From Cephalotus follicularis (Eukaryota; Streptophyta; Magnoliopsida; Oxalidales; Cephalotaceae): a DNA stretch of 64,000 bases. Below are positions 3,883 through 55,174 of this stretch, piece by piece; position 1 is the stretch's first letter, and every line of letters begins with the position of its first letter. The notes under the pieces were generated by a model. That model was given only the letters and a program-made list of their open reading frames with translations, was not told the origin of the DNA and searched no databases. Both the position numbers and the translations under genes were made by a program. The stretch lies in the NCBI GenBank assembly GCA_001972305.1, contig BDDD01001646.1, positions 609,495 through 673,494 of the forward strand, given 5' to 3'.

Positions 3883-4377
3883 TGTTGATGTTGAAATGAA
3901 CTCCTCAGCAGTACCCCACGTGTAAGGCTTTGATTTGTAGAGGAAACGTTGTGGATGCTTCGAGTAGGTTGTTTGGATGGTGTTTGATCGTCTTCCCTGC
4001 ACAAAGAAAGTAAACTAATCACAGGTTCAGGAGGTTTCACTCCTGGGGACTCTCCGATGCTTAAGTCAGAAAAAGCAGAGAAGACAATACAAAGATGCTT
4101 TAGTGTATGAAAATGGTAGACATGTGCAATGTGTTTGATTCTCGTATTTATAGAGCCTGGTTGTAATAGCTTTGCTAGACTTGCGGAGATGATTATTGTA
4201 CCCCTAAGGAAATGCTGAGTATCTAGCCATTTCCCTGATCTTACGCTGCAGCGTTATTGTGCGTTATCTCTCCGGATTGTAAACACCCGACCACGTGTCT
4301 GTAGCTCTAAATGACACGTGTCTTGTTTTCCCGAGGACACGTGGTGGTATTTTATGAATAGAATTTTTTCCATATCA
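3883..4377 (-). repeat. 3' LTR of Tat copy 1
   Basis: This 495-bp LTR pairs with 14078-14571. On the minus strand it starts TGATATGG and ends CATCAACA. Confidence 0.93.
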
Positions 4378-4661: not shown

Positions 4662-4669
4662 TTTAAAAA
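4662..4669 (+). promoter_or_regulatory. TATA-like box of the antisense gene
   Basis: TTTAAAAA lies about 270 bp upstream of the antisense start codon. A leader intron with donor near 4799 and acceptor at the end of the CT tract (about 4922) would place it upstream of a short leader exon. This is an inference from position only. Confidence 0.4.
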
Positions 4670-4931: not shown

Positions 4932-7260
4932 ATGGCTAGGACCAAACAAACCTCTAAACAAGTTAATGATCCAGACACGGCTAGCCGCCTGGCAGGAGAA
5001 GTGACTTTTGTCAAGCGTCTTCTCAGTGTCGAGGACGACATGGTAGCCATGGTCGCGGGGGCCCCTGATGCTGGTTCTACCAAGAAGGGGGTCGAAGTTT
5101 TCAGGACTCACTTTGACAAAAGTGTACTCCGCCCCGATAAAATGAAGGAACTAGCCGAAAAATATGGCTTCCCGGGGAGCTTGATTTATTCGATTCCCAA
5201 TGATCCCAAGGAGGTCACTTAAAGCAAACCTGGCCTCTTCCCGGTGTTTATGGATGCTCTGGAGCATGGCCTGAGACTCTTGATTTCGTCTTTTGCCATT
5301 GGGGTCCTAAGGCATTTCAAAATCCACCATTCATTGTTTCAGTCGCAATCCTGGGCCTTCATCATAGGGTTTTTGGTGAAGTGCCTGGAGTCCGAGGCGG
5401 TTGCTACAGTAGAGCTCTTCAAAGAGTTCCACATTCTGGTCGTCTCCCCTGTCAAACGTGGGTACTACTTCAAGTCCCATCCTGGACTAACCAAGAAGCT
5501 ACTGGTGGAGCCCACGAAGTCCGTAAAGGGTTGGAGAGGAAGGTACTTCCTAGTCTGGAATCTCCCTGGGTTTACCCCCTGCCCATGGTCGGATACAGTG
5601 GACATCTAACGCCTCGATAAGAGGTCAAAACTGCCTATGGCCAAGAGGGCTGACCTGGCCAGACTCTCTACTCTGGAGCTAGAGGGGGTGAACCATACTG
5701 TATGGGAGAATCGTCTTCACTAGGTTGGGTTAAGTATGTCTTCGGGCCGACGATTCTGCTTGGATAATGAGGAAGAGATTCCAGTCGGAATAGAGAGAGA
5801 GAGAGGGATAAGGGCATCTGAGAAGAACCTGAGGCTCGGCCCGTGACCAAGGAAAAAAGCTGTATAAAGCCTTCGTATCCTCCACTTTTAACTTTTGTAT
5901 TTCTTTCATTCCTTTACTGTTTTTTGCTGTGCTTTTGATTCCGTAGTTTTTGTGGTTTTCTGTAGCAATGGGTCCTCAATGCAATGTGAATGACATCCTG
6001 AGGGTCAGCCAGGAGAATAGGAAGCAGGTTGTTGTTGAGGGAGCAAAGCAGAGAGAAAAAACAACTGGGGCCGAGGGGGGGTTTTCCACCGCCGAGGCTG
6101 CCAAGAAGAAGTCTGGCATAGGCAAGCGGCCTATGGAGGAACGTCCCCCCACTATTCTTCCCACTCCTCCGGCCAAGATGCACAAAGGAGGGAAAGAGGC
6201 ATAGAGTTCTTCTCTCGGAAAACAAAACGTTTCTCCCGCCACAAGCTCTCGAGATCTAATTCAGTTGAGCGTTCTTCACAAAATTGACAAGATGATAGAC
6301 GAGCTGGAGGCGATGGGCAGCTCGGACTTGAACTTAAACACTCCTAGGGTTCCCTTGGAACTCAGCAGGCTATTCATCATTCCATCCAAGCTCAATGCTA
6401 GGAAAGGATGGAACCATGAGATGCTGATAAACCATTGCATTCGGAGCAACATCAGGGTAAGTGATCTCCTCTGTCTCTTTTCGAACACATTTTTTGCTTT
6501 TCCTCGAACACCCGTCTTTCTCTGACAGGCTCTGAATGAAGCTCAAATAATGGTGGAAAACTTTGAGGTCATTCTTGAGAAAAACGACCAGCTGAGGGGA
6601 GAGGTGGCCGAGCTCAAGGAAACCACCGACTCGGCCAAAACTCGGTTGGAGGAGGTGCTTAGGGCCTAGGAATCCATCACAGAAGAGAAGAATCAAGCCG
6701 TTGAGGCTTTGGAGAAGGAGAAGGCCGAGAGGAAGGAAGTGGAAAGGGAATTTGTGCGCATCGGTGATATGTACCGTGCACTAGAGGGGGAATTTGAAGG
6801 TTACTAAAGCAGGGATGAAGCTCGGGTGAAGAAAGCAGTGGACAAGGCTCTGATGGAATTCAAGTCTGCGGACGAATTCTGTTCACTGATGGAGGCCTCC
6901 ATGGAGGACTTTAAAGCTTCATCAACCTTTGACGATGAAGTATTCAAGGAATCTGCTGAGTACTTCTGTCGGGACTTCTACGCTTGTCAGAATTGGATTC
7001 CATCTCTTCATCCAGAGGTTCCTTTGACTGGTATTGTTTGCTGCCTGACCGCTGATACTTTCGATTTCTATCATGATGGGATCGAGGTGGAGGAAAAGAA
7101 AATGGGGCTTGCCTTAGGAGAGGGAGCTCGTCCTGCTCAGGAAGAAGATGAGGCACAGGGAACCGGGTCCCCGGATCTGGTTATCCTACCCTCGGATCCT
7201 GCTATGGACCCTTCTTCTTTGCCAAAGGATGATCACGAGCCCTCACTCCCGAAGTCTTAG
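4932..7260 (+). pseudogene. Antisense accessory gene of Tat copy 1 (H3-tail-like N-terminus)
   Basis: This coding region lies on the strand opposite to gag-pol, between integrase and the 3' LTR, where Tat elements are known to carry additional ORFs. The start at 4932 follows the CT tract and gives MARTKQTSK, identical to histone H3 for the first six mature residues. Downstream is a segment with the 'DALEHGLRL..W.FIIGF' pattern of the plant 'putative gypsy type transposon' domain (about 5240-5560), a basic low-complexity stretch (about 5950-6205), an intron with GT-AG ends (about 6456-6528), a Lys/Glu-rich coiled coil (about 6535-6790) and an acidic C-terminus (to 7260). A poly(A)-signal-like AATGAAATA follows near 7330. 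The function is unknown. The copy is broken in several places. Confidence 0.75.
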
Positions 7261-8605
7261 TTTTGTAGATTTGTCTTTTCTTTTGCATTGTAATTTTCAC
7301 TCTATAACTTGTACTTTTTCAAAGAGTAATGAAATATTGAATTTCGGCATCACTGTATTCTCTCTTTTCTTTCTGCTCTGTCTGCTTTAGTATCTTCTCT
7401 AACTTCGTCAGGGCATTTACTATTCCCTTAGAAATTTTTAATGTAAATGATAGAATTTGACTTGTGCTTTATTTGAGCATTGCAATTCTCGTTAGGAATT
7501 CTTACTTAGTCTATTTTATAAACTTCTTGCATTGTGGTCCAACATTTTTTAGACCGAGTTACCTAAGCTTTCTAGTCCCCATAAGACACTTTGTATAAAA
7601 AGTGCTTAGGCAGGGAGACTTGGTCTTTACGAGTTCTTAAGTGTTCGTAGATCAAGCTTTAGGTATACTCGGACAAGTTCTTACGGGTTTGCCGAGCAGG
7701 ATCTCGTCTGGTCGGATTTTTCCCCATCAAGTCATCTGAGCTTGCAATCCTCGTAGGGACACTTGTTTCAAAGTGCTCAGTCCAACGAACTTGATCGTTG
7801 CGAGTTCTTATGGATTCGCCTCTCAAGACACGATATTTGTTTGGTCGGACAAGTTCTTACAGAGTTGCGGACCAGTGTTTTCTCCTTTGAGAGTCTTATT
7901 GCTTCCTTAGAAGTCTTTTGTTGAAAAACTTTAGGGGCTCCTGCGATGGAGTCCTTAGCACTCCTCCGGTGGGAGTCTTCGGTGCTCCTCGGAAAGAGTC
8001 TTTAGTACTCCTCGGAAGGATTCTTTAGTGCTCCTCGTAAGGAGTCTTTATGCTCCTCAGAAGGAGTCTTTCTTTATTCGAGACCTCGGTCTGTTCTAGA
8101 TTTTAGCCTTTATTTGTTTACTCCATTAGGAGTTTCAAGTCTTCGTGAGACTTGGAGAGCTTTGGTCCTGTGTCAAGGCCTGCTTTGATTGCTCCCTTGG
8201 GAGCATGGTCGGACAAGCTTGTATTAAAGCTTCTTGACTATGGGAACTAAACGGCAGCTGTTCAGAGGTTTAAGGACTCGAACATTGGGCCTCCAGTCCC
8301 TCGCAAACTTGAAACTATAGTCTTGAACATGCTCTTTTTGAAAAAAAAATCATCTTTATTGATATTCTTGAATTTTGTACATGAATACATACTTGCATCA
8401 GTCACTGATAGTATTTCCTTAGATGTTCGGCATTCAAAACTCTAGGAATCTCCCTGCCCCCCAGAGTTTCAAGTTTGAATGTTCCTGGTCGGAGCACTCT
8501 CTTCACCTTGTAGAGCCCCTCCCAATTAGGAGCCAATTTTCCTCTAGTACCGATCGGAGTAGCAATAGCCGCATTATGGACGACTAGGTCTCCTTCCCTT
8601 AGTGG
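7261..8605. other. Spacer between convergent genes of Tat copy 1
   Basis: No gene is seen. It holds the presumed 3' ends of the antisense gene and of pol, diverged repeats of 'tcggacaagttcttac' (7660-7860) and a palindromic minisatellite (7935-8075). Confidence 0.6.
7935..8075. repeat. 23-bp minisatellite, each unit a small palindrome
   Basis: About six units of the form CTCCTCGGAAGGAGTCTTTAGTG run head to tail. The core CTCCTC..GAGGAG-like part of each is itself nearly self-complementary. Confidence 0.8.
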
Positions 8606-11600
8606 TCAGGGATTTACTCTTTTATTGTAGTAACGACTCACCCTCTGTTGGTAAGCTGCTACTTTGATGGCTGCCTTATCTCTGAGCTCTTCCACTAGGT
8701 CGAGGAGATTTCTTAATCCTTCCTCATTATATTCTTCCCTGAAATGCACAACTCTTGGTGACTGCACACCAATTTCTACCAGTATCATAGCTTCTGCTCC
8801 AAAGCAAAGGTTGAACAGGGACTCACCAGTTGTGGTCCGAGGAGTGGTTCTATAAGCCCATAACACACTTGGTAGCTCCTCTGTCCATCTTCCTTTGCTA
8901 TCTTCAAGGTGTTTCTTTAACCCTGAGATCATCTCCCTGTTAATCACCTCGGCTTGGCCATTGCTCTGGGGGTAGGCCACGGATGCAACCCTGTGTTCAA
9001 TTCTCCATTCTTTGCAAAAATCACGGAATGCATGACAATCAAACTGCTTCCCATTATCTGAGACTATTACTCTCAGGACTTCGAATCTACAGATGATTGA
9101 CTTCCACACAAAGCTTTCCATATTCCTCTCTGTTATCGTGACTAGGGGCTCAGCTTCTACCCATTTGGTGAAGTAATCCACTGCCACGATGAGGTACTTC
9201 CTCTGCCCTATTGCCACTGGAAATGGCTTGACAAAGTCCATTCCCCATTGTGCAAAGGGCCAAGGAGCAGTGATAGATGTCACAGGCTCTGATGGTCTTC
9301 TTCTTATATTAGCATTCCTCTGACACTTATCGCACTTTCTTACAAAGTTGATGGCATCTTGATGCATGGTGGGCCAAAAATAGTCGTGCCTTAACAATTT
9401 GCTGGACAAGTTTTTGCCCCCCGTGTGATTGCCACATACTCCTTCATAAACTTCCCTCATAGCATAATTGGCCTCTAAGGGGGTCAAACATCTCAGCCAA
9501 AGAAAAGAAAATGACCTTTTGTAGAGGATCCCTTCTCAGAATTGGTATATGTTTGCTATGTACACCAACCTTCTTGCCTCATCTGGGTCCTCTGGAAAAA
9601 TTCCATCCCTTAGCCAACTAATAAATTGAGTCATCCAGTTCGGCTCTTCTTGAACATCAATAACCATCACATCTGCCTCCGAGATGGTGGGCTTGTCTAG
9701 ATAATCCACTAAAACGGTTTGGTTTTTCTCCCGCTGTAGCCAGTTTTGATAACTGGTCTACTCTGGAATTCTCTGCTCTAGGAACCTTCAAGACTCGCAA
9801 CACTTTGAAAGCCGACCTTAAGCTCTAAACATGGGCTAAGTATTTAGCCATGGAATTTTCTCGGGCTTCATACTCTCCACTCGCTAGACCAACCACCAGC
9901 TGAGAATCACTAGAGGCCTCTATTTTTTGAATCTCTAAGTGCTTTACAATTATCAATCCGGCAATTAGAGCTTCCCACTCTACTTCATTGTTTGTTGCTT
10001 TGAACCCAAATCTCAGAGCATACTCCAAGGTCCACCCATCTGGACTAGTCGACACTAAACCTGCTCCACTTCCAGAGACACAGGATGAGCCATCAACTGA
10101 AAGCTTCCATAACCCCTTCTCATCTTCAGAGGTTTATTCTTTCATACACTCCGTAAGTGTATGGTCTCCTACAAAGTCAGCCAAGACCTGTGATTTTATT
10201 GCTGGTCTGGCTTCGTACTTTAAGTCAGACTCGCCCAATTCGACTGACCACTTGATCAATCTGTCCAAGACGTCTGACTTTTCTAGCACTTGCCTTAGTG
10301 GCTTGTCAGTCAAAACTTTAATAGTGTGGGCTTGAAAGTATGGCCTTAACTTTCTCACCGCTGTAATCAGAACATAAGCGTATTTCTCTACATCTGGATA
10401 CCTCTCATTAGCGTCATTCAAGGCATTGCTCACATAGTATACTGGCCTTTGAACTTTTTCCTCTTCCCTGACAAGCACTGCACTCACTGCGCTTGATGTT
10501 GCTGCAAGGTACTAATACAAGTCTTCCCCATCTTTCAGTTTTGATATCAGAGGAGGGGAAGCTAGGTATTCCTTCAAGTTGTCAAAGACCGCTTGAGATT
10601 TTTCCTACCAAGAAAATCCCTTGGGATCTCTCAGCACCTTGAAAAAAGGAAGGCATTTCTCTACTGATTTTGATACAAAATTGCTCAGGGTTGCTATCTT
10701 GTCATTTAAATTCTGTATATCCCTGATAGTCTGAGGAGGTCTCATGCTCTGAATTGCTGAAATTTTTTCTGGGTTAGCCTCTATCCCTCTGCTCGAGACC
10801 ATGAACCCAAGGAACTTACCAGAAGTGACCCCAAAGGTACACTTGGAAGGATTGAGCTTCATTTTGTATCTTCTCAGTACCTCAAAAGTTTCCTCCAAGT
10901 CTTTAATGTGAGGACTCCTTGCTGGCGTCTTGACGAGCATGTCGTCAATGTAAACTTCCATATTTTTCCCGATCTAAGGTTCAAAGATATTGTTGACCAA
11001 CCGTTGGTAGGTCGCCGTAGTGTTCTTCAATCCAAAGGGCATGACTCTATAATAGTACATGCCCCTGTCTATGATGAAAGCTGTCTTGTTCTCGTCGGGC
11101 CCATACATGGGGATTTGATTATAACCCGAATATGCATCTAAGAAGCTCAACATCCTGTATCCTAAGGTTGCATCCACCAACTGATCGATCTTAGGGAGGG
11201 GGAAGTGATCTTTTGGGCAAGCTTTGTTTAAGTCTGTGAAGTCTATGCACTTCCTCCACTTGCCATTTGCCTTCTTTACTAGGACGGGGTTCGCCAATCT
11301 GTCTGAGTAATGCACTTCCCTAATTAACCCCGCTTGTAACAGCTTGCTCACCTCTTCTGCTATTACTTGCTGCCTCTCGGAAGCAAAGTTCCTTTACTTT
11401 TGCTTGGTCGGAGACCTCATAGGATCCACACTTAGCTTATGCACCATCACCTCTAGGCTGATCCTATGGACCTCCTTTGCCGACCTGGAAAACATATCTT
11501 TGTTGTTTTTTAGGAACGTTATCAGTTCCTCTTTCTCCACCTCTCCAAGTTGTGAGCTTAATTGGAATACTTTCTCTGTGTTTCCCTCTTCCAAGGGCAC

Positions 11601-14077: not shown

Positions 14078-14571
14078 TGTTGATGTCGAAATCAACTCCT
14101 CAACAGTACCCCACATGTAGGGTTTTGATTTGTAGAGGAAACGCTGTGGATGCTCCGAGTAGATTGTTTGGATGGTGTTTAATCGTCTTCCCTGCACAAA
14201 GAAAGTAAACTAATCGCAGGTCCAAGAGGTTTCACTCCCGGAAACTCTCCGATGCTTAAGTCAAAAAAGGGAGAGAAAATAATACAAAGGTGCTTTAGTG
14301 TATGAAAATGGCAGACCTGTGCAATGTGTTTGATTCTCGTATTTATAGAGTCTGATTGTAACAGCTTTGCTAGACTTGCAGAGATGATTATTGTACCCCT
14401 AAGAAAATGCCGAGTATCTCGCCATTTCCCTGATCTTACGCCTGAGCGTTATTGTGCGTTATCTCTTCGGATGGTAAACGTTCGACCACGTGTCTGTAGT
14501 TCTGGAGGACACTTGTCTTTTTTTCTGAGGACACGTGCCGATATTTTATGAATAGAATTTTTCTCATATCA
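14078..14571 (-). repeat. 5' LTR of Tat copy 1
   Basis: This 494-bp LTR pairs with 3883-4377, differing at about one site in ten. It ends at the ATACT target repeat. Confidence 0.93.
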
Positions 14572-52682: not shown

Positions 52683-55174
52683 ATGAGCTCCAAATTTCAT
52701 AGGCTAATGCCTAGTAAGTTTAGACTTTTATTCGCTGGTCTCGATACCATTCAGGAAGAGTCCAACTTTCTTCCTTCTTATAATATGAATCTCCCTCTCC
52801 TGGGATTAGAGCATAGGGTTTCCCCCATTAGGGAGACTTTAAATTCACTAATTAGGGTTTTAGATGAACGTCCTAAGTCTCCTCATCCTCATCATAGGCG
52901 TAATTTCTTTACTGTTTACTCTTCAGATAGCAAGGACGAGGAGGATAGATTAACGCTTACTGCTATAACGGCGAGGACCAAACAAACCTCAAAGCACACT
53001 GAGAATATTAGGACTGGCGAAAACCTTGAAAACTCAGTTCCAAGTAGGGCTGCTCTTTCGCATTCCATAAATTTCTCTAAGAGTAAGATAAACCGGTCTT
53101 GTATGATCGAACTAGTGAAGGAGTACAACATTCATGGTTACAAAGATGTGTGGATACCTCCTGATGGGACTAATGTTGGTGTGAGTGTTTTTGGTAGATT
53201 CGCTGTGTTTGAAGACGCGCTAAAACATGGTCTACGTCTCCCCTTATTTGACTTTGCTTCTTGGGTGTTGGGTCATTATGGTCTGCACCCTGGTCAAGTA
53301 CAGGCTTAGTTGTGGGCATTTATCATGGGATTCCATGTTCTCTACATTGGTAAAAAAAAAAATTCATAGTGTTGCCTTGTTTAAGGTGTTTTTCCAAATT
53401 TGTAGTGGCCAAGAAACTGGTTTTTACTTTAAATCCCGAACAAGCCTAAAACTGTTAATCGAGCAAACTAAATTCGTTAAAAATTAGAGGTATCGGTATT
53501 TTTTGGTGGACGAACTTGTTAATTTCACTCATGCGGTCTGGAATGATGCTTCTAGGGCTGAATTAAACCCAATTGATCCTTTATCAACAGAAGAGAAGAA
53601 ATCTCTGGCTAAACTACTCTCGTTATAACCTATTTCTGTTCAGATTCTCATTACACCGCAGAAGTTAAAAGATGTTGGTTTATGTGTTCCTCGGAGGTTT
53701 GAAGATGAGGAAGGGAATCTGACTCCACTGACTCTAGTAGCATAAGAACTCTTCAAAGCTTTTCTTTTCCGAGGTTTCATCTGACATCATCCACATATCT
53801 AACTGGTTCTATTTTTTGTTTTGCAGAGATGTCGGGAGGAGTACTGTCTAGGTACATAAGTGCCTATGCTTCCCAAATTGGGGGTAGCTTCAGAGTTCTG
53901 ATGTTGTTTAGAGTTCTGATGTGATCCCCCCAACCCCTTAAGCCTCATACCAAGAAGGCTAGGTTGTTGAAGTCCGAGAGGGAAGATCTTGCGAAAGATC
54001 AAGCCACTCTTCCTAAGGCTCCTGAACCTTCTAGAGAGCCTCCTCCCAAGATATCAATTTCTCAAAGAAAAAAGATAACTCCATCTGGTAAATACAAACA
54101 AACTGGGGAGGAGTCCCACCAGGCTCGGTTATTGTGTCATGTTTCTGTAAGTGCGAGGGAGGCCTCAGTATACGAGGAGTTCTTAAACTTATCCTTCGTG
54201 AATGCGGATAGAAGGGGTAAAAACAAGCTAAATCTATCAGAGCTCTAAGGTGAGGCATGGAGTACTGCTCTGCAGGTAGATAAACGACAAATCTTGTCTG
54301 CTATTCTGGTATGAGTTTCTCTAACCGTCCTTGTTTTCCTCTAATGTGGTTTTTGTAAAAAAGCAATAATATCACGCTTCTCACCAAGAAATTGGAAGAG
54401 CTGAGCACTATTCTGAAAAACAAGAAGGCTAATTTGGCCAACAAAGAAAAAGAGATGAACAATAAGGAAAAAGAGCTTGACAGCCTCTAAGTTTTCAATA
54501 CAGAACTTGGTGAGAAGATCGGGAAGGCTTTCCATAACAAATCAGATCTTGAATAAAAGGTCGATGAAATGAGGAGGTATTTTAACTTGCTGCATGAAAT
54601 AAATCTTCTCAAGGAGAAATATTTCACAGTTATCAAGACTCATGATCAGAATTATGAGCTGTTGAAAAAAGTTTGTGAAGAGTTGGAGGATCTTTGAAAA
54701 AGACATAGTTCTTTGGTAGAGAAGGCAGTGATAGATATCAAGGCCTCAAAAAGTTTCCAAGAAGAGGTAGATAAAGAAGCATATCTATCTGGGAGGGTAT
54801 TTTTCTACAGATTCAGGAATTGGATCCAAGGCTTGCATCTCTCCCATATATTGGTAATGGGAATTGCTGAGAAATATGACTTCATACCAGAAGGAGTCAT
54901 CGACCTTGAAGTCATAACTTTAGAGGCACGAAAAAGAGGTGTTGAGCCTTCCTTTGTCATCTCGCAACCCTTTGATCCTCCTGTTGTTGACATAATTGAT
55001 CCTCCACTCACAACTATTCAAATCGGAGTTGATACCGAGATTATTGATCTTGATGCTGATGTTCAAGATCCTATCATTGGAGAAGACTTGGAAGTTGGGG
55101 AGCTAGACCAAGTTTGGGCCGAGTTAGGGAACCTTGATCCCTTACACATTGAAGGTATTCCTCATGTAGAGTAG
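52683..55174 (+). pseudogene. Antisense accessory gene of Tat copy 2
   Basis: Homologous to the antisense gene at 4932-7260: ARTKQTSK (52971-52994), the FAVFEDALKHGLRLP..VLGHYGLHP..WAFIMGF domain (53180-53350), intron-like GT-AG boundaries near 54308-54360, a Lys/Glu coiled coil (54365-54700) and an acidic C-terminus ending at 55174. Here the H3-like peptide lies inside a longer frame that begins near 52683 (MSSKFHRLMPSKFRLL) and includes a Ser/Asp-rich stretch. A leader-intron donor-like CCACG|GTGAGG near 52633 parallels copy 1. The function is unknown. The copy is broken in several places. Confidence 0.65.

Follow-up and report, generated by a model that had tools for sequence, protein, structure and literature searches.

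The window analyzed here is a 64,000-nt stretch of the Cephalotus follicularis genome (GCA_001972305.1, BDDD01001646.1:609,495-673,494, forward strand) and contains, on its minus strand, a Ty3/gypsy element bounded by a pair of LTRs that are 89.7% identical (Table 1). The pol domains follow the order reverse transcriptase, RNase H, additional RNase H and integrase, which is that of Tat elements, with RVT_3 located between the RNase H of the reverse transcriptase and the integrase. On the strand opposite to gag-pol, the interval from pol to the 3' LTR contains an ORF with the TRP28 domain (PF04195), a further mark of the Tat/Retand group; its position and orientation are the same as those of the antisense TRP28 ORFs of Grande (gene23), RIRE2 and Retand. 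The ORFs of a Retand survey (PMC11963269) likewise share the TRP28 domain, with tandem repeats nearby in about half of the elements.

Table 1. Features of the Tat element (copy 1) and of the second antisense copy, in positions of the window
Feature	Positions	Strand	Basis or remark
3' LTR	3883..4377	-	89.7% identity to 14078-14571
TATA-like TTTAAAA, candidate promoter for antisense transcription, within the element	4662..4668	+	sequence
TC-rich leader directly 5' of the start codon	4869..4920	+	tandem repeat finder
Start codon ATG of the antisense gene, copy 1	4932..4934	+	sequence
Antisense frame, first stretch, 96 codons, ended by TAA at 5220-5222	4932..5219	+
ARTKQTSK, H3-tail-like N terminus	4935..4958	+	sequence; family-wide
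Post-stop stretch, same frame, TRP28 domain	5223..5606	+	PF04195, E 2.6e-6
Downstream open stretch, charged, coiled-coil-like	6808..7260	+	by eye
Tandem repeat, 23-bp unit, 6.2 copies, between pol and antisense gene	7929..8071	.	tandem repeat finder
Integrase	8609..9535	-	rve, Integrase_H2C2
Additional RNase H, mark of Tat elements	9828..10133	-	RVT_3
RNase H of reverse transcriptase	10137..10511	-
Reverse transcriptase pieces	10608..11393	-	RVT_1
5' LTR	14078..14571	-	partner of 3883-4377
ARTKQTSK of second, distantly related antisense gene	52971..52994	+

The antisense gene of copy 1 opens at 4932-4958 with ATG GCT AGG ACC AAA CAA ACC TCT AAA, encoding M-ARTKQTSK, so that the reading of this start in the first-pass annotation is confirmed by the window sequence, and the same start was recovered in a pattern scan of the genome (C1646:614426). 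Between the TATA-like site at 4662 and the ATG at 4932 the window sequence contains no other ATG. Copy 1 itself is a fossil, since its frame stops at 5220-5222 and PF04195 is recognized only after the stop. The open stretch at 6808..7260 gave no Pfam match and is perhaps the C-terminal part of the protein after introns, which suggests a spliced gene. The second antisense copy, for its part, retains ARTKQTSK with ACG (52968-52970) in place of ATG directly before it, and its PF04195 match (E 0.0012) falls under the family cut-off. Thus, of the two copies that had been credited with the tail, one has the intact start followed by a stop after 96 codons and the other lacks the initiator.

A genome-wide scan for MARTKQT, in any codons, revealed 2,551 sites as compared with 2 for the reversed pattern, and the longer pattern MARTKQT-x-K gave 79 sites as compared with 0 for its reversed control. 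The latter are not canonical H3, because residue 8 of H3 is Arg; the MARTKQT total would include any H3 genes of the host. Twenty hits were read, about every fifth of 100 MARTKQT places listed of the 2,551. A near-complete TRP28 domain was present in 15 of these, and the remaining five (L141, L144, L145, L150, and L153) comprised the start and a TRP28-type linker only in the stretch fetched; no histone-like protein was found among the 20. Residue 8 is Arg in 18/20 hits and six have ARTKQTAR, which is identical to residues 1-8 of H3. The first-pass observation that the first six residues match the tip of H3 therefore extends, in some copies, to eight, the commonest form being ARTKQT-[S/T/A/K/R]-R, with the S7-K8 of the window copies as a variant. 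One locus (L099) reads ARTKQTARK, and its residues 1-12 align with histone H3 chains in the PDB with a best E value of only 0.63, as the match is very short. From residue 9 onward the sequences are as a rule not H3-like; the imitation thus covers the surroundings of K4 and the free end, and not the K9 site. A Pfam scan of four TRP28-type antisense proteins returned Transposase_28 only, with no histone fold; the rest of the protein is, as had been noted, unrelated to histones.

To sample the family independently of its N terminus, residues 61-234 of L019 were used as the query, leaving out the first 60 residues; 150 of 12,444 candidates were scored and the starts of 60 of these, spread over the ranking, were collected. 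The best match to MARTKQT was 7/7 in 31 rows, 6/7 in 17, 5/7 in eight, and lower in four. Shuffled motifs (50 permutations on 60 rows, 3,000 tests) gave none at 7/7 and seven at 6/7. Together, the 2,551 sites against 2, and the 31 of 60 exact rows against 0 of 3,000 shuffles, exclude chance as the source of the tail. They likewise exclude, with the 79 sites of the longer pattern, a tail that is present in two copies only.

The main selection test was based on a MAFFT alignment of the 60 rows built without use of the motif, in which MARTKQT is exact in 30 rows and position 4 is Lys in 55; many of the remaining rows are one or two residues off. Codons 2-7 had a pS of 0.52 and a pN of 0.10 (pN/pS 0.20, bootstrap over rows 0.13-0.26), compared with a pS of 0.47 and a pN of 0.27 in codons 9-58 (pN/pS 0.57, bootstrap 0.54-0.60). 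The order of the two ratios was reversed in none of 300 bootstraps; the intervals are too narrow, since the rows are related, although the direction of the difference is plain. Of all 52 windows, those at codons 1-6 and 2-7 had the lowest pN/pS. A version anchored on the motif (58/60 rows) gave a pN/pS of 0.18 in codons 2-7. At fixed offsets the contrast was weaker, because frame shifts and indels displace the start: pN/pS in codons 2-7 was 0.67 over all 60 rows, a value that some other windows matched or undercut; over the 47 rows in register it was 0.45, compared with 0.59 in codons 9-58. The similar pS of 0.52 and 0.47 rules out constraint at the nucleotide level, such as a cis element on either strand. 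The tail is constrained as a peptide and not as DNA, the peptide being nearly fixed while the DNA changes, and it stays the same across subfamilies with linkers that diverge strongly from about residue 9. The majority of the copies read are broken, copy 1 of the window included. At position 5, Gln is replaced by Arg or Lys in 15/59 rows (L081-L140), a systematic variant by which the match to H3 is relaxed in some subfamilies, and the module recognized may be shifted there.

To place the tail on a tree, 112 TRP28 stretches of at least 600 nt were considered; 12 without a near-complete domain were dropped, as were 5 of the remaining 100 with fewer than 60 residues. The resulting tree of 95 domains rests on 80 alignment columns, and many of its inner branches are consequently weak. 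A tail was called where at least 5/7 residues matched within 700 nt upstream of the domain. The labels require three changes on the tree, compared with 29.5 when they are shuffled. The tail is found in 58/60 rows of one TRP28 clade, including a deep branch formed by the second window copy and its sister L061 (MARAKQT), in 0/33 rows of the other large clade, and not in L064 and L070, which branch next to the tail clade. One of the two exceptions in the tail clade (L075) has no match in 1,600 nt upstream; the other (L014) has a MARTKQT start 823 nt ahead of the labeled TRP28 stretch, beyond the 700 nt searched. L014 also contains two TRP28 stretches, 531 nt apart, in one 3-kb locus. Among 50 PF04195 matches read (ranks 1-30 and 51-70 of 150), 11 had at least 5/7 residues. 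A tail universal to TRP28 proteins is ruled out by the 33 rows and the two further rows without it. All these presence and absence counts refer to one plant genome, and scans of viral and prokaryote contigs yielded no true relatives, the one row of one such scan (L177) being a short chance match. In the other large clade (L031-L060), a few members have MASPST- or MAFTST-like starts upstream. A comparison of N termini across related elements had been proposed in the first-pass annotation as a check on mimicry. Run inside this genome, it favors mimicry, showing a tail that is clade-wide and under purifying selection at the peptide level; the expectation that related elements share the ARTKQT start thus holds for one clade and fails for another, and the tail is not a property of every TRP28 protein.

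The position of the start codon was assessed in 36 loci that offered at least 500 nt of upstream sequence. The ATG-free leader has a median length of 160 nt, compared with 49 nt after shuffling. At a distance of 200-260 nt upstream of the ATG, 20/36 loci have a TATA-like site, a count without a control. Outside the subclade with Lys or Arg at residue 7 (the K/R subclade), an in-frame upstream ATG within 60 nt was found in 1/76 loci, several of which have an in-frame stop at a distance of 3-51 nt upstream of the tail ATG, and none of the 53 scorable rows of the 60-row sample has one in the leader fetched. The tail is consequently the predicted start in most subfamilies. Within the K/R subclade, the 60 nt before the tail ATG contain another in-frame ATG in 15/20 loci, at a distance of 3 to 42 nt and with no stop between; in seven loci it is in a weak-looking context (cctATG). 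If used, such an ATG could place the tail inside the protein or after a second Met. In this subclade (L066-L080, L141, L148, L150, L151, L157, and L158) the in-frame ATG is often 36-42 nt upstream and the leader frame is serine-rich, MTTSSSSSSLSGNL-MARTKQT; in L143 and L146 a second Met directly precedes the tail. As the start check strengthens the case in most subfamilies and weakens it in one, the odds for a mimic are unchanged.

Collectively, these data show that selection has preserved a short stretch matching a histone tail at what is predicted to be a protein terminus: by sequence, a real, clade-wide and selected H3-tail mimic is present in the genome of Cephalotus follicularis. The chance of a six-residue identity with H3 is ∼1.6e-8 per conserved start, assuming uniform residue use and uncorrected for the number of families that could match. 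A mimic function is strongly suggested, and we consider it likely that the tail acts as one.

The histone mimic of influenza NS1 is a C-terminal tail of four residues, ARSK. Both it and the TRP28 tail are H3-like tails on the protein of a selfish element, the latter differing in that it is predicted to be N-terminal and includes the H3K4 surroundings on which free-end readers depend. The likeness of SNAG sequences to H3 is loose, whereas the antisense TRP28 tail is identical to H3 over six to eight residues and is carried by a transposon protein, and to our knowledge no H3-like tail has been described on VANC proteins. The SNAG domains of GFI1 and SNAI1 are likewise N termini that imitate the H3 tail; they occupy LSD1, an H3K4 enzyme, and a SNAG peptide inhibits it (PMC5896174). 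The VANC proteins of VANDAL elements are encoded by plant transposons of a different class and are anti-silencing factors that bind tandem-repeat-forming noncoding regions of their own elements, with loss of silent marks (PMC10398659); for the TRP28 proteins, such an effect is a proposal. Descriptions of the Grande and RIRE2 antisense genes date back to the 1990s (cited in PMC7264820), with no function assigned to them so far. Neither "histone" nor "mimic" appears in the main text of PMC11963269 or PMC7264820, and the sequence logo in the former covers the TRP28 domain. A search of the literature, judged by titles and the openings of abstracts and with preprints and most subscription journals outside its scope, listed no report of an H3-like tail on a transposon protein.

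A mechanism can be outlined from these elements. The antisense transcript would start inside the element, its first AUG opening M-A-R-T-K-Q-T. Methionine aminopeptidase cleaves Met before Ala, and its removal here would leave a free A1-R2-T3-K4-Q5-T6-x-R8 tail, which N-terminal acetylation could hide. A fast-changing linker of roughly 60-90 residues would join this tail to the TRP28 domain and perhaps to a coiled coil. The tail would then occupy host reader or writer modules for the H3 N terminus around K4, as SNAG does with LSD1; that it recruits or competes for H3K4 readers, as first suggested, is a fair inference. The preferred targets would be H3K4 erasers and readers feeding RNA-directed DNA methylation (LDL1/2, JMJ14, and SHH1); with these blocked or displaced at its own DNA, the element would be silenced later, and the protein would play a VANC-like part. 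The H3K4 demethylases JMJ14 and LDL1/2 sustain RNA-directed DNA methylation, a role proposed to act via SHH1, the binding of which H3K4me2/3 inhibits (PMC3820799). For Grande, the antisense product is found in the nucleus and its gene is transcribed from its own promoter (PMC7264820), and TRP28 has predicted DNA-binding residues, with about half of the surveyed Retand elements having tandem repeats in the region of the antisense ORF (PMC11963269), as does copy 1. It is on SNAG and LSD1, the JMJ14-LDL1/2-SHH1 pathway, VANC, the predicted DNA binding of TRP28, and the tandem repeats that the proposal of a tethered H3K4-tail decoy, which would block or capture K4 erasers or readers at the element, is founded. 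That the antisense TRP28 proteins of one Tat/Retand-type clade carry a dedicated mimic of the H3 N terminus, probably serving against silencing, has in our estimate a probability of about 0.6; the specific anti-silencing direction, taken by itself, is tentative and somewhat doubtful. With its conserved H3K4-type tail, one large clade of such antisense genes gains a hypothesis in specific biochemical terms. If correct, this would represent histone mimicry by a transposable element and would link retrotransposon success with RNA-directed DNA methylation and with the proteins that read or erase H3K4 marks.

The same sequence evidence would fit a mimic acting in reverse, in which the tail recruits LSD1-like or other corepressors and the antisense protein represses sense transcription, limiting transposition. 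SNAG factors need LSD1 to repress (PMC5896174), and the protein is encoded antisense to gag-pol; on general reasoning, however, selection for self-limitation tends to be weaker than selection for escaping silencing, and we regard this reading as unlikely. The N terminus might instead be constrained for another reason, such as nuclear import, stability, or a partner that is not an H3 reader, with an accidental likeness to H3. The tail is indeed short and basic, the Grande product is nuclear (PMC7264820), Q5 varies to Arg or Lys in subgroups, and the upstream ATGs of the K/R subclade mean that the tail is perhaps not terminal there. Identity at residues 1-6 together with Arg8 in 18/20 hits would nevertheless be improbable by chance, and basic import signals do not need the exact T3, Q5, and T6, so that an accidental likeness appears quite unlikely. 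A tail captured from an H3 gene, or arisen once, and kept by descent without function would agree with the lack of general H3 likeness after residue 8 or 9, as expected of a tiny captured piece. Such a relic is contradicted by the selection test (pN 0.10 against 0.27 downstream at similar pS) and by a peptide that stays the same between subfamilies with strongly different linkers, and is hardly credible.

The H3-like start is also found on a second type of protein. L003 (913-1527, minus strand) has a MARTKQTAK start on a protein matching PF20167 (E 6.8e-12), and L161 (from 226, plus strand) has the same start on what is, by eye, nearly the same protein; hhalign of the TRP28 profile against L003 found no relation. 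Six other PF20167 N termini (L171-L176, of 150 matches listed) do not start with ARTKQT, so the tail is limited to a subgroup of PF20167. Several of these six start with MPKTKH or MPKSKH, which are short, basic, and loosely similar. The L003/L161 tail may have arisen independently by convergence or through an exchange of the first codons; two copies this similar are weak evidence. The fuller proposal, that an ancient retrotransposon clade uses a tethered H3K4-tail decoy against silencing and that the PF20167 subgroup, an unrelated family of plant transposon proteins, independently arrived at it too, is rather unlikely as a whole.

A structure model of the region following the linker (L162:378-926; 183 residues, 48 natural sequences) was confident, with a pLDDT of 89, whereas a model of the whole protein including the tail was uninformative (pLDDT 38) and was not used. 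The TRP28-region model had no match in the PDB or BFVD with an E value below 0.001, so no function was assigned from the fold, which is possibly new. PF04195 also occurs in two unusually long open frames, of 1285 residues (C397:426248-426448) and 665 residues (C2581:197671-197868), which are perhaps fusions or host genes.
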